A stretch of DNA of 58,258 nucleotides from Bacteroidales bacterium (GCA_007133565.1 SLMM01000057.1:1-58258); one strand, 5' to 3'. Counted from the first letter of the stretch, positions 35,047-44,449 are shown. Numbers and translations are program-made. The notes: generated by a model from the sequence alone, not told the origin.

Positions 35047-36405
35047 ATGGCAAAGATCGAAATATTACTGCCTGCAATGGGCGAAGGGATTATTGAGGCA
35101 TCCATTACCAGGTGGCTTGTATCGGAAGGAGATCATGTTGAAGAAGACCAGCCTTTGCTGGAAGTTGCAACCGACAAAGTCGATTCCGAAATACCATCGC
35201 CAGTTAGCGGTTTAGTAACCAAAATTTTAATTGCGGCAGGTGAAACTCCGCAAACAGGAAGCATCCTGGCGATAATAGAGACAACAGCAGATCCGGGCAG
35301 GACAGATCCGGATGAGGTTGAGCGTGAAGTTGCAAGAATAAAGGAAACGAAAGACACATCCGCTCCTGAGGCCGGATTTGCAGATGATCAGGATACCGCA
35401 ACCCACTCCTATCCGCGATCCGGAGGAATCCCCAGACAGACTCCATCGGGAAAGTTTCTCACACCCCTGGTGCGAAGCATTGCAAAAAAAGAAAACATTT
35501 CGCTCAGTGAGCTCGACAACCTTCCAGGCAGCGGTGAAGCCGGAAGGATAACAAAGAATGACCTGGCCAGCTATATCGCAAGCAGAGATCAAAAATACGA
35601 ACCTGGCATTGCAGGCCCGGAAGTCCACGTCGCAACCAAAGAGGCAGCCCCCGCACCCTCCGCTTATCCGGCACCGGGGCGGGCAGTTCCCGGCGAAGAA
35701 GACAAAATTGTCGAAATGAGCCGTGTGAGAAGAATCATAGCAGGACATATGTTGGCCTCAAAACAGATATCCCCTCATGTAACATCTTTTATAGATGCCG
35801 ATGTAAGTGAGCTTGTAAGATGGCGGGAGAGCAACAAAACCGGATTTTTTGAGCGGGAAAACCAGAAAATCACCTATACACCCCTGTTCATAGAAGCTGC
35901 TGCAAAGGCTCTTCGTGATTACCCCATGGTCAATGTTTCCGTTGACGGGACAAGAATAATTGTAAGAAAGAATGTCAATATTGGTTTCGCCGTTGCTTTG
36001 CCCGACGGCAACCTCATTGTACCGGTAATAAAGAATGCTGATGAAAAAAGCCTGGTAGGACTTGCAAGAGCAGTGAATGATCTTGCAGAAAGAGCCAGGA
36101 GCAATAAACTCCAACCTTCTGAAACATCCAATGGTACTTTCACCATAACAAATTTTGGAACCTTCAGGAATACCGCCGGGACACCCATAATCAACCAACC
36201 TGAAGCAGCCATACTGGGTGTGGGGGCAATAATAAAAAAACCTGTGGTAGTTGAATCCCCAAAAGGCGATGTCATTGCCATAAGAAACATAATGACTCTT
36301 TCACTATCTTATGATCACAGGGTTGTAGACGGCGCACTCGGGGGCATGTTTCTGGAGCGCATAGCCAGCTACCTTGAGAACTTTGACGCCCAAAGGAAAA
36401 TATGA
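35047..36405 (+). CDS. 2-oxo acid dehydrogenase dihydrolipoyl acyltransferase (E2)
   Basis: This 452-residue E2 component has a lipoyl domain at 1-78 with the lipoylated Lys in VATDKVDSE. A peripheral subunit-binding domain (~139-178) reads LTPLVRSIAKKENISLSELD then GRITKNDLASYI. The C-terminal catalytic domain (~218-450) carries the HRVVDGALGG active-site motif (His, Asp). It transfers acyl groups to CoA in pyruvate or branched-chain 2-oxoacid dehydrogenase. Ala/Pro-rich linkers join the domains. No E1 or E3 gene is adjacent, so which complex it serves is unclear; a branched-chain type is plausible because Bacteroidetes make iso/anteiso fatty acids. Confidence 0.93.
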   Translation: MAKIEILLPAMGEGIIEASITRWLVSEGDHVEEDQPLLEVATDKVDSEIPSPVSGLVTKILIAAGETPQTGSILAIIETTADPGRTDPDEVEREVARIKETKDTSAPEAGFADDQDTATHSYPRSGGIPRQTPSGKFLTPLVRSIAKKENISLSELDNLPGSGEAGRITKNDLASYIASRDQKYEPGIAGPEVHVATKEAAPAPSAYPAPGRAVPGEEDKIVEMSRVRRIIAGHMLASKQISPHVTSFIDADVSELVRWRESNKTGFFERENQKITYTPLFIEAAAKALRDYPMVNVSVDGTRIIVRKNVNIGFAVALPDGNLIVPVIKNADEKSLVGLARAVNDLAERARSNKLQPSETSNGTFTITNFGTFRNTAGTPIINQPEAAILGVGAIIKKPVVVESPKGDVIAIRNIMTLSLSYDHRVVDGALGGMFLERIASYLENFDAQRKI

Positions 36406-36563: not shown

Positions 36564-38915
36564 ATGAACAGAACAATCACTTTACTCATAACCGGATTAT
36601 TGTTCACCAGCCAGGCAGGAGCACAGATCTATTCACAACTTTATTCAGGAAGGCAGGAGATGTTTCTTGAGGCAGAATCATTCCATCTTTTTGAAGAATA
36701 TAACGAAGCTCTTCCACTATACCTTGAACTCCTGAAAGACGATCCGGAAAATGCATTCCTGAATTACAGGGCAGGTTCGTGCTATCTGAATATACCGGGA
36801 GAGAAGGAGAATTCCATTGATTACCTTGAAAAAGCCATTACCGACACAGACAGACGTGACAGAAGGCCCACCTTCCGGACCAGGCAAGCCCCGCTGGATG
36901 CCCTTTTTCTTCTCGGCCAGGCTTATCACATCAATTACCAGTTTGATAAAGCACTCGAAAAGTATTTTGAATTCAGGGAGAAGCTCGACCCCTCCGTATA
37001 CGATATTGATATTGTCGATGAACATATACAGGCAACTGAAAATGCCATTGAAAGCGTCAAAAACCCTGTCTTCTTCCTTGAAGAAAACCTTGGAGAAAGG
37101 ATAAACACAAGATTTTCTGAATCAAATCCTGTTGTATCGGGTGATAAGAGTGTGCTGGTGTTTACACGCAAACTGCCTTTCTATGACGGTGTGTTCTTTT
37201 CGGTAAAAGATGATGAGGGAGAATGGTCATGGCCCATTGAGATAACCCCCCAGATAGCAAGTGACGGTGATTGTTATCCGGTGTCGCTCTCATACGATGG
37301 CAAAGAACTATACCTTTACAAATCGGATGACCTCGTAGGCAATATCTATGTTAGCCTCTATGAGAATGGGAGCTGGACACCAATAAGAAAACTTAATGAA
37401 AACATCAATACAAGATTCTGGGAGTCCCATGCCAGCATATCAAAGGATGGAAAAACACTGTATTTCACAAGCAACCGCCCGGGCGGTTATGGCGGGCTCG
37501 ATATTTACTATTCAGAAAGGAACCCCGGAGGTGACTGGGGTCCGGCAGTAAATTTGGGACCTGTAATAAATACTCCCTATAATGAAGAGACACCTTTTAT
37601 AACTGAAGACGGCACCACCATTTATTTCAGTTCTTTCGGGCACTACAATATTGGAGGCTATGACGTGTTCTACTCAACGAGGCTGGACGACGGCACCTGG
37701 TCGAGTCCGCTTAATGCAGGATACGGGATCAGCACTCCGGATGATGACCTGTTTTTCAGCCCCGTCAAAAACGGCATCTATGCTTTTGTCTCAAAATTCT
37801 GTGATGAAGGGTTTGGCGGCACTGATTTGTTCATGTATGAAATATTCTCAGATACCCATCCGCGCAAATTCCAGATCAGGGGCATCATGAGCAGAAAGGA
37901 CGGCCTGCAGACCGGCATCAATGCCAGTATAACCATTTTGGACAAGCACACCGGAGACACCGTTCACACTGCAAGACCCAGCCAGATCAGCGGTGAATAT
38001 GAAATAATGATCGAAGCCGGTGATTGGGAATTGATCTACAGTGAGGATGGACACAAGCAGGTGACCATGCCCCTCAGCCTGGCTGCAGATCATCCGGAAT
38101 CAGAAATAATAATTGACACTTCCATTGAAAGACCGGATCCTGAAATACCAGGCATTGAAGAAGTTATTACAGACAGGATCATAATTCCCAAAGAACTGAT
38201 CCCCGCCCGGACCCTTGGAATTACCCGTCACCGTTACGATATTGCAGACGAGGAGAGTATCAAGGTCACCATGAGACTTGACAGGGATACCTCTCTTGAA
38301 ATTGAAAAATATCTGGACGGTGAGCTTTTTGATACCGAATATATAAATGTCCGCAGCAGGCATTTCAGTTATTACTACACACCACTTCCGGGAGAAAATA
38401 TTCTTAGATTTATATATACTGACAGTTACGGCGATGTCATTACCGAAGAGGTGTTGATAAGCTTCAGCCCAATCATGCCGGCGCCCCCATCTCTTGAGGA
38501 TATCCTGAGTGAGCAGCATTTAACAGTTATTGCAGAACAGGAACAAAAATATGCTTCACCTGCAGAGTTCATAAGCGCACTGATCCCCCACTTGTCAGCA
38601 GAGCTGGCTGCCTACCTGCAGGAACTGAGTGATGAGAGACGGCTGCCCTCGTCAATTGCCGGACTTATTAGAATTATTGTTGAGAATAGTAAAGTGTACG
38701 GATATGACCCTGATGAAATATTCCGGGTTATAATGGAACTTGATGCCCGGGATGAATTTGAGACTGCCGATGATGAGGTTGATGATCCTGACTATGATGA
38801 AGTTGATGATCCTGACGGCAGAAGGATTATCTGGTGGATATTGCTTCTTGCAATCCTGTTACTGGCAGCATGGTATTTTAAAGAACGATCGGACCGTAAG
38901 AGAAATAATCTTTAA
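36564..38915 (+). CDS. PorE-like TPR-PD40 envelope protein with C-terminal membrane anchor
   Basis: This 783-residue protein has a signal peptide ending near AGAQI and TPR-like helices at ~25-170. A PD40/WD40-like propeller spans ~185-430 with repeated units such as GKTLYFTSNRPGGYGGLDIY. A carboxypeptidase-regulatory-like beta domain follows (~435-520), then a second beta domain to ~640 and a helical region. An Asp/Glu-rich segment (DDEVDDPDYDEVDDPD) precedes one C-terminal transmembrane helix (IIWWILLLAILLLAAWYF) with a basic tail. The domain order resembles T9SS component PorE, but the usual OmpA domain is replaced by the membrane helix. It is paralogous to the next gene, 14 bases downstream. 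Exact role unknown. Confidence 0.85.
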   Translation: MNRTITLLITGLLFTSQAGAQIYSQLYSGRQEMFLEAESFHLFEEYNEALPLYLELLKDDPENAFLNYRAGSCYLNIPGEKENSIDYLEKAITDTDRRDRRPTFRTRQAPLDALFLLGQAYHINYQFDKALEKYFEFREKLDPSVYDIDIVDEHIQATENAIESVKNPVFFLEENLGERINTRFSESNPVVSGDKSVLVFTRKLPFYDGVFFSVKDDEGEWSWPIEITPQIASDGDCYPVSLSYDGKELYLYKSDDLVGNIYVSLYENGSWTPIRKLNENINTRFWESHASISKDGKTLYFTSNRPGGYGGLDIYYSERNPGGDWGPAVNLGPVINTPYNEETPFITEDGTTIYFSSFGHYNIGGYDVFYSTRLDDGTWSSPLNAGYGISTPDDDLFFSPVKNGIYAFVSKFCDEGFGGTDLFMYEIFSDTHPRKFQIRGIMSRKDGLQTGINASITILDKHTGDTVHTARPSQISGEYEIMIEAGDWELIYSEDGHKQVTMPLSLAADHPESEIIIDTSIERPDPEIPGIEEVITDRIIIPKELIPARTLGITRHRYDIADEESIKVTMRLDRDTSLEIEKYLDGELFDTEYINVRSRHFSYYYTPLPGENILRFIYTDSYGDVITEEVLISFSPIMPAPPSLEDILSEQHLTVIAEQEQKYASPAEFISALIPHLSAELAAYLQELSDERRLPSSIAGLIRIIVENSKVYGYDPDEIFRVIMELDARDEFETADDEVDDPDYDEVDDPDGRRIIWWILLLAILLLAAWYFKERSDRKRNNL

Positions 38916-38929
38916 TCAAGTAATGCAAA

Positions 38930-40921
38930 ATGCGTTTGTTGATTGCCGGTGTATTCATTTTCACGGTTCTCCTTCAGGAGAGCATATCGCAGTGGAGAAT
39001 GAGCAACCAGGACATCTTTGCGGAATCCTATGAGTTCCTGCTGTTCGGCGAATATTCAGAAGCACTGCCCGGGTTTAGGGCACTTCTGCGTGATGACGAA
39101 AATAACGACCACCTCAGTTATCTTGCAGCTGTATGTTACCTGAACATTGAAGGCCAAAGGCACAGAGCGCTGCCTTTCCTTCAACAGGCAAAAGATAATA
39201 TATCGCCAGACCACTCCGAAGGAAGTTTTGAAGAGAGGTCTGCGCCCGTTGAGGCGCTCTATTACCTTGGCATTGCCTACAGGCTGCAGTACATGTTCAA
39301 AGAATCGGTTAATGCCTTCAGCGAATTGATAGAGCTGCTTGAAGGGCGTTATGATATGCAATTAATAGAAAGGGAAATAGAGATTACCTTAAATGCGGAA
39401 ATGTTTTACATCAACAGCCATGAAACCGGGATATTGCCCTGTGCTGTCATGCCTCCTGTTGAATCGCACCACAGGAACCTCGCCATAAGCAACGATCGCC
39501 TGGTCGCTGTGTATTCTGAAGAACAAAAATTTTATGACGCCGTTGTTTTTACAATCTATAATGGATATGAGTGGTCAAGGCCAAGGAACATAACCATGCA
39601 GATCGGTTCTGACGGGTTGGCTTACCCGGTATTTCTGAACCATGACGGAACAGAGTTATACCTGGCTAAACATGACAGGTTCCAGGGTACAAACATATAC
39701 ATAAGCCGAAGAGCCGGAAACCGTTGGTCGGCTATGGAAAAGCTAGGAGGCCCTGTCAGCTCATCAGCATTTGAGCAACATGCATCGGTTACCGCAGACG
39801 GTTCCGCACTTTACTTTTGCAGTAACCGGTCAGGAGGCGAAGGAGGGTTTGACATCTACAGATCATTTCTTGATGAAAACGGGGAATGGGGTCCTGCTGA
39901 AAATCTGGGCTACCCGGTGAACACCCCCTACGATGATTCTTTTCCTAATATCAGTCCCTGTGGAAACATTTTGTATTTCAGCTCAAAAGGGCACACAGGC
40001 ATGGGGGGTTATGATATTTTTGTTTCTCATAAGCAGGATAACGGAACCTGGTCCGCGCCCCGTAACCTCGGGCACCCGGTTAACACCCCTTTCAATGACC
40101 TGATCCTTCTGCCTTCTGCCGACGGACAGAGTGCATTATTAAGCCTGAGGTCGCCGGAGTGGCCTGACCCGGGTAAATATGAGCTGATCAGGCTACATGA
40201 TGTCGAAATGACACCATCGGCAACATCCATAATTTCATGGTGTACAGATAGTGGCGACACCGGCGAGCCGGCTGCAGTAAACGTTGAAATCAACCGGACT
40301 TTCCCATACGAATCAACATTCCGGATCTGTATTGAAAGGGGGAGGGAATATACAACGAAACTCCCGTGGGGTGAGTATAATGCTGTATTTACTGCCCCTG
40401 GACATGACCCGGTGCAACAGCACTTTATGATTCCTGAATATTATCCCGATAACGAATATCTTGTTTCTGCCAAACTCAGCAAAGGTGCACAGGAGGCCGA
40501 TTATCACATAATTGAAATAACCCCTGTATTTTTCGGATTTGACAGTAACGATCCCGGCCCGGCTTCACTTGAGATAATTTCTGTTGTGGCCGGTTTCCTG
40601 AATGAGTTTGAAAATGTAGCAGTTGAATTGAAAGGGTATACAGATTCAATGGGGCCCGAACTCTATAATAAATACCTTGCAGGACTCAGGGTTGAAACTG
40701 TAGCTTCAGTGCTTCATGACAAAGGGGTTGAAGCGGAAAGGATAACTGTTACCCCTGTCGGAATGGGAAATTACATTGCGATAAACACTGACTGTGAAGG
40801 GCGTGACAGCGTCGAAGGAAGAAGGTATAACAGGAGAGTTGAATTTGTTTTTATAAATTTACCTGGTAATACCGAAGTAATGAGCTCACTTGAAATACCT
40901 GATAATCTTATAATAAAATAA
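38930..40921 (+). CDS. PorE-like TPR-PD40-OmpA envelope protein
   Basis: This 663-residue protein has a signal peptide (MRLLIAGVFIFTVLLQES). TPR-like helices (~30-170) align well with the previous gene (LLFGEYSEALPGF). A PD40 propeller spans ~185-430 (GSALYFCSNRSGGEGGFDIY), followed by a short beta domain. A C-terminal OmpA peptidoglycan-binding domain (~535-645) reads ELKGYTDSMGPELYNKYLAGLR and GRRYNRRVEFVF. This is the domain set of PorE and related Bacteroidetes proteins that link outer-membrane machinery to the cell wall. Whether this is the T9SS PorE orthologue or a separate family cannot be settled from this window. The GNAT gene starts 2 bases after its stop. Confidence 0.87.
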   Translation: MRLLIAGVFIFTVLLQESISQWRMSNQDIFAESYEFLLFGEYSEALPGFRALLRDDENNDHLSYLAAVCYLNIEGQRHRALPFLQQAKDNISPDHSEGSFEERSAPVEALYYLGIAYRLQYMFKESVNAFSELIELLEGRYDMQLIEREIEITLNAEMFYINSHETGILPCAVMPPVESHHRNLAISNDRLVAVYSEEQKFYDAVVFTIYNGYEWSRPRNITMQIGSDGLAYPVFLNHDGTELYLAKHDRFQGTNIYISRRAGNRWSAMEKLGGPVSSSAFEQHASVTADGSALYFCSNRSGGEGGFDIYRSFLDENGEWGPAENLGYPVNTPYDDSFPNISPCGNILYFSSKGHTGMGGYDIFVSHKQDNGTWSAPRNLGHPVNTPFNDLILLPSADGQSALLSLRSPEWPDPGKYELIRLHDVEMTPSATSIISWCTDSGDTGEPAAVNVEINRTFPYESTFRICIERGREYTTKLPWGEYNAVFTAPGHDPVQQHFMIPEYYPDNEYLVSAKLSKGAQEADYHIIEITPVFFGFDSNDPGPASLEIISVVAGFLNEFENVAVELKGYTDSMGPELYNKYLAGLRVETVASVLHDKGVEAERITVTPVGMGNYIAINTDCEGRDSVEGRRYNRRVEFVFINLPGNTEVMSSLEIPDNLIIK

Positions 40922-43831: not shown

Positions 43832-44449
43832 ATGACATTATACATAGTACTTTTCACATCAGTTATCTCAGTACTTGCCTTCTCCAGGCCGGAGCTGATG
43901 TACCGGCTTCAGTTCAACCCATACCAGGTATACCACCGGAAGGAATTCTACAGGCTGATCAGTCATGCACTGCTGCATGCCGACTGGGTGCACCTGTTCA
44001 TAAACATGCTGGTACTGTTTTCATTCGGCACCGCTGTTGAAAGGTATTTCGCGCGTCTTGAAAGTATGGATATGCTGAGATCTTCGGTTTTAAGCTACCT
44101 GTTACTGTATATAGGTGCAGTTGTTGTATCATCGCTCGCAACACTTAAAAAGCATAAGGATAACCATTGGTATAATGCAGTGGGTGCATCAGGCGGGGTT
44201 TCGGCAGTAATTTTTACAAGTATCTTTTTTGCTCCCTGGCAAAACCTGCTGCTCTGGGCCATAATTCCCATACCGGGAATACTTTTCGGAGTGCTATACC
44301 TGGTATATTCGCATTACATGAGCAGAAAAGCATCCGACAATATCAACCATGATGCACACTTCATAGGGGCGGTTTACGGACTGCTTTTCCCGCTTTTAAT
44401 AGATTTCAGCCTGCTCAGGACATTTATCGATCAGCTGTTCGGAATTTAA
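43832..44449 (+). CDS. Rhomboid-family intramembrane serine protease
   Basis: This 205-residue inner-membrane protease has six predicted transmembrane helices. The HLFINMLVLFSFG motif on the second helix, the nucleophile Ser120 in VGASGGVSAVIF and the general base His176 in HDAHFIGAVYG are all present, so it should be catalytically active. Rhomboids cleave membrane-protein substrates within or near the membrane; the target here is unknown. Length is that of the minimal bacterial form. It is followed after 22 bases by gmhB. Confidence 0.94.
   Translation: MTLYIVLFTSVISVLAFSRPELMYRLQFNPYQVYHRKEFYRLISHALLHADWVHLFINMLVLFSFGTAVERYFARLESMDMLRSSVLSYLLLYIGAVVVSSLATLKKHKDNHWYNAVGASGGVSAVIFTSIFFAPWQNLLLWAIIPIPGILFGVLYLVYSHYMSRKASDNINHDAHFIGAVYGLLFPLLIDFSLLRTFIDQLFGI

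Follow-up and report, generated by a model that had tools for sequence, protein, structure and literature searches.

The closest described relatives of the genes reported here are PorE and its homologues. PorE itself is a lipoprotein by which an outer-membrane complex is tethered to the cell wall; it binds the PorP barrel and peptidoglycan (PMC9143113, PMC7192894) and has been proposed to be a fused CpoB-TolB-Pal tether (PMC12204202). F. johnsoniae has PorE homologues outside the core type IX secretion system (T9SS), for example Fjoh_3950, for which a role in fixing complexes to the wall has been suggested (PMC12618676). Here we describe two tandem genes, A and B, from a 58,258-nucleotide stretch of Bacteroidales bacterium DNA (GCA_007133565.1 SLMM01000057.1:1-58258; the whole stretch is referred to as the window), which encode PorE paralogues with different C-terminal anchors: an OmpA-like domain in B and a predicted inner-membrane helix in A. 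No account of a TPR-PD40 family anchored in the inner membrane turned up in a search limited to the open full-text literature.

Two tandem paralogues of PorE

Gene A (36564..38915, 783 aa) and gene B (38930..40921, 663 aa) lie on the + strand, as do all their features given below. They are separated by 14 nt, and a GNAT gene starts 2 nt past the end of B. Both open reading frames were found where a first-pass annotation of the window had placed a tandem pair, and alignment of the two proteins (34% identity across 529 aa, E 9e-92) identified them as tandem TPR/PD40-propeller paralogues. Each starts with a signal peptide followed by TPR, a PD40 propeller and a carboxypeptidase-regulatory-like domain (CRD). 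Pfam matched PD40 and, weakly, TPR in each protein, and OmpA in B alone (PF00691, 33.4 bits against a gathering cut-off of 27.2, 5.7e-8; no match in A).

The structure of A was modelled with AlphaFold2 from 34 homologues (mean predicted local distance difference test score (pLDDT) 84.7, predicted template modelling score (pTM) 0.59; the placement of domains relative to one another is unreliable). The model has TPR helices, also recognized by Pfam (residues 30-166; 36651..37061), a five-bladed PD40 propeller whose nearest solved folds are TolB propellers (residues 170-428; 37071..37847), and the CRD-like beta domain (residues 434-521; 37863..38126), for which the homologue at L044 gave a CarboxypepD_reg match. 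A loose linker leads to an immunoglobulin-like (Ig-like) beta-sandwich (residues 557-634; 38232..38465), seen in the model, matched in fold search of a homologue and missing in some congeners. A helical unit spans residues 644-733 of the model and includes the single copy in this protein of a helical repeat of about 67 aa that is specific to A (residues 679-725; 38598..38738). The CRD-like domain, Ig-like domain and helical unit of A go beyond what the first-pass annotation had described. At the C-terminus come a disordered acidic linker (residues 732-753; 38757..38822; pLDDT <50) and a lone helix (residues 752-782) with the transmembrane segment RIIWWILLLAILLLAAWYF (residues 755-772; 38826..38879) and the basic tail KERSDRKRNNL (38880..38912).

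B ends instead in an OmpA-like domain (residues 525-640; 40502..40849) that resembles solved peptidoglycan-binding domains, among them PDB 6top (E 7e-6), which we take to be the PorE domain. It contains the pattern D572-x6-YN-xx-L-xxx-R587 (40643..40690), kept in 79/80 OmpA-ended relatives of B. The spacing is that of the diaminopimelate-binding residues of PorE, Asp576, Tyr583, Asn584, Ile587 and Arg591 (PMC7192894). We infer that B carries a peptidoglycan anchor. The contrasting ends of the two proteins, OmpA in the second and an acidic stretch, transmembrane helix and basic tail in the first, were thus seen much as first annotated. Some other TPR-PD40 heads bear a SPOR domain, a wall anchor of a third type: it ends one such protein in the same genome (L051:3028-4998, G000:C168) and, at L048:2629-5241, stands behind an OmpA domain that falls just below the Pfam cut-off.

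A and B are PorE paralogues, and neither is PorE itself. The TPR, PD40 propeller and CRD are common to PorE (P. gingivalis PG1058), A and B, and the OmpA domain of B has the same peptidoglycan-contact residues; A has the Ig-like domain, stalk and membrane helix where PorE has OmpA. Whereas PorE is a lipoprotein, no lipobox cysteine was found in the signal regions of A or B, and a loose lipobox pattern occurred in 2/76 A, 3/80 B and 1/92 C relatives. Identification of either protein as PorE was rejected because both score far under the curated cut-off of 600 bits for the PorE model NF052230 (A, 115.7; B, 160.4) and the true PorE of this genome is encoded on another contig (L053:5630-7603, G000:C58; 714.9 bits). 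The TPR-PD40-OmpA layout of B is also that of the CHU_0125 family OmpA-like outer membrane integrity protein (NF053607); the cut-off of that model is 620 bits, and A (142) and B (146) both score below it.

A tree of 98 rows, built by a 'quick' search from TPR and propeller columns with the C-terminal columns excluded, placed PorE in one clade (support 99) and 30 of 31 A proteins, the window's among them, in another (support 96), with B and C types, some of the B rows on long branches, outside both. The kinship to PorE suggested by the first-pass annotation is one of paralogy, with A and PorE on separate branches. The exception is the A protein from L129, but its position apart from the A clade is weakly supported, and the tree is still compatible with a single origin of the anchor. 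The A family is an unnamed conserved Bacteroidales family with its own clade and its own repeat stalk.

The predicted membrane anchor and stalk of A

To survey the C-terminus independently of its own sequence, we searched public genomes with a profile of A residues 170-645, the C-terminus left out, and found 80 relatives. Nearly all came from metagenome-assembled genomes, whose record titles name Bacteroidales or other Bacteroidota, bar one labelled Chlorobiota. In all 78 A proteins with a complete C-terminus (the window's own counted in), the last 60 residues contained a hydrophobic segment, and the tail behind it was mostly basic, with a net charge of +4 at the median (n = 78). On a biological hydrophobicity scale, the segment had a median insertion energy of -3.3, whereas no other part of A fell below +3.4; the 157 mature B and C paralogues likewise stayed at or above that value and have no comparable segment. 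We take the segment to be a stop-transfer inner-membrane anchor, which by the positive-inside rule would have the N-terminus outside and the C-terminus inside. The membrane anchor that had been proposed for this protein from its sequence is supported by a single, strongly hydrophobic helix with a positive tail, present throughout the family.

The acidic stretch fared differently. Although it is pronounced in A of the window (net -15 over the 40 aa preceding the helix), it was strong solely in the window's genus across the 78 C-termini; we rejected it as a defining part of the design and regard it as a genus feature.

A hydrophobic helix with a basic tail is also the general form of sorting or processing signals (LPXTG, PEP-CTERM or GlyGly-CTERM style), and the helix might be such a signal or be released by a rhomboid protease, leaving mature A off the membrane. 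Rhomboids cut single-pass proteins of N-out/C-in orientation, and a gene for a rhomboid-type membrane protein with a GASGG and a late HDAH motif (43832-44449) lies within the conserved neighbourhood, albeit with B and four more genes between it and A. However, no common motif preceding the helix was apparent by eye across the 78 sequences (no motif-finding program was used). We rejected this reading because inspection disclosed no such motif, and consider it very improbable.

The part of A proteins that separates the Ig-like domain from the helix holds zero to ten copies of the helical repeat (consensus L...A.GdL...L..lDL...gI.s..dLi.yL...A...gYt.eDV..Ll): the window protein has one, fairly diverged, and the homologue at L093 has ten. 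A repeat profile, seeded in part with the window's own unit, was run against 12 genomes and matched the A gene alone (E <= 0.01). Sequence comparison with Pfam and PDB gave nothing significant for the repeat, and names suggested by chance-level matches, including EF-hand-like proteins, were discarded. Fold search with the model of a five-repeat homologue (pLDDT 74.5, pTM 0.35) returned Ig/Fn3 domains and a few weak, unspecific longer matches. Some A proteins of the window's genus lack the Ig-like domain and stalk yet keep the helix, making the anchor the constant part of A.

Propeller, Ig-like domain and membrane helix stand in the same order in the Bacteroides hybrid two-component sensor BT4663, and sensors of this type were among the fold matches of A. 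The propeller and Ig-like domain of A could then sense a ligand or mechanical state and signal through the helix to a cytoplasmic partner. A 1501-aa TPR-PD40 protein in another genome (L057:2528-7030, G019:C91), in which TPR-like repeats, a membrane helix and a putative histidine kinase follow the head, provides a precedent for such a fusion. A itself has no kinase, differs from BT4663 in blade number and sequence, and matched its fold with a low template modelling score; moreover, its cytoplasmic-side tail is about 4-17 residues long, variable in sequence across relatives and without an output domain. A receptor function for A appears unlikely on these grounds.

Gene association and distribution

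The first-pass annotation had proposed that the pair bridges inner membrane, cell wall and an outer-membrane machine, and co-occurrence in other genomes bears directly on this. In 69 of the 78 A genes with downstream DNA, the next gene on the same strand was another TPR-PD40 gene, across families; the 78 loci are related, so the 69 are not independent events. An OmpA-ended gene followed within six genes in 58/69, and many of the others end at contig edges. The association persists though upstream neighbours change between groups: an E2 acyltransferase gene precedes A in 42/72 loci, and elsewhere a glycosyltransferase or an unrelated coiled-coil-like gene does. The subtrees of the array members largely mirror one another. 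Together with the insertion energies above, these results speak against both a C-terminal segment that stays out of the membrane and a pair of independent OmpA-family variants without co-occurrence.

Two PD40 genes might still be adjacent by happenstance and work apart. Genomes with A carry several to many further TPR-PD40 genes, and B has been lost in congeners that retain A; against this stand the 69 of 78 associations in differing neighbourhoods and the largely mirrored subtrees. We consider ordinary, unlinked paralogues distinctly unlikely.

Several observations nonetheless weigh against a scaffold built by A and its sisters. In five congeners (L059, L060, L061, L062 and L073) A is followed by GNAT without B. 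A search with B that covered four of these five genomes (all but G012, the source of L061) matched just A and more distant paralogues, with no close B at another site. At L106, L107 and L122, A has no PD40 neighbours. Adjacency may merely reflect an ancient tandem duplication that was passed on vertically, the spacer formed by Ig-like domain and stalk is dispensable, being missing in some A proteins, and a physical interaction of A and B is hypothetical. With B absent behind A in at least five congeners, B cannot be a requirement for A. Of the proposed bridge, then, the paralogy, the two anchors and the co-occurrence held up, whereas obligatory pairing and attachment to an outer-membrane machine found no support. 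B also diverged faster than A in 3/3 congener pairs (65/49/52% compared with 69/63/62%).

One such outer-membrane machine would be the T9SS. A and B would then be PorE paralogues with an accessory role, keeping particular PorP/SprF shuttles and surface proteins in place, with A joining these to the inner-membrane (motor) side. In F. johnsoniae, the operons of PorE-like genes also encode SprF-like shuttles and type B substrates (PMC12618676). PorE scored above cut-off in most relatives' genomes and in 15 of 17 A-bearing genomes tested, the other two being incomplete assemblies. PorE is, however, common in the order, so its presence alongside A tells little. No PorP/SprF gene or secreted substrate was seen in the A/B arrays, the PorE of this genome is a separate gene, and A differs from the F. 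johnsoniae proteins in its inner-membrane anchor. The PD40-PorP pair of the genome sits elsewhere (L054:5205-7561, G000:C58), where a PD40-PKD protein lies beside a PorP/SprF-family protein and a 1206-aa gene, a set that looks like a T9SS shuttle set. A T9SS accessory role is accordingly an unlikely explanation.

The family of A is narrow, judging by an A-specific CRD-plus-Ig profile: at E <= 1e-20 it matched 37/393 genomes of the order, in ten families, counted from the listed matches, whereas a phylum-wide draw of 396 genomes gave no match at E <= 1e-15 other than the window's own genome. The E2 acyltransferase gene directly 5' of A in the window (35047-36405) represents old synteny with no obvious functional link. 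No Bacteroidetes-type promoter (TTTG...TAnnTTTG) was found 5' of A, and window-wide matches were at chance level; sigma-70-like and terminator-like sites were near chance, and no RNA families were found in the window.

A possible scaffold between inner membrane and cell wall

The explanation we favour, with a probability of about 0.5, is that A serves as a scaffold tethered to the inner membrane and partnered by its peptidoglycan-anchored sisters, so that the array links inner membrane and cell wall and positions or stabilizes an envelope complex. Following this logic, A and B would carry one and the same periplasmic interaction head, composed of TPR, five-bladed propeller and CRD, on two different anchors. 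Both would be exported by Sec. In vivo, A would halt in the inner membrane by its C-terminal helix, with its N-terminus periplasmic and its basic tail cytoplasmic, and the Ig-like domain and repeat stalk would hold the head off the membrane at a species-dependent distance. B would be freed into the periplasm, where its OmpA domain would bind diaminopimelate-type peptidoglycan. The heads of A and B may bind one another or a common client, and the array would do for inner membrane and wall what PorE does for wall and outer membrane. In the simplest reading, one head with several anchors (membrane helix, OmpA, SPOR as at L051, or none) could thereby hold one kind of client at different layers of the envelope.

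The Tol-Pal system offers a further comparison. TolB is the nearest solved propeller fold to A, although TolB has six blades and the model of A five, and A is membrane-anchored and lacks the TolB N-terminal domain. B unites a TolB-like propeller and a Pal-like domain in a single chain, as has been proposed for PorE (PMC12204202). This N-terminal domain (PF04052) was found neither in A or B nor in any of 13 genomes (G000-G008 and G016-G019, the window's own included), while the E. coli, Caulobacter and Bacteroides ihuae controls were positive; its absence leaves room for a Tol-like role and does not demonstrate one. Speculatively, and with low probability, the A family and its peptidoglycan-anchored sisters might be this lineage's own envelope tether, running from inner membrane to wall and, through the heads, to the outer membrane, with the 0 to 10 stalk repeats setting the spacing like a ruler.

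Whereas PorE joins an outer-membrane complex to the wall, the A branch has an anchor for the inner membrane in place of the one for the wall. If the favoured explanation is true, these bacteria build inner-membrane-to-wall scaffolds from PorE-type parts, and the A family would offer a testable handle on the cohesion of the envelope layers in Bacteroidales, about which little is known.

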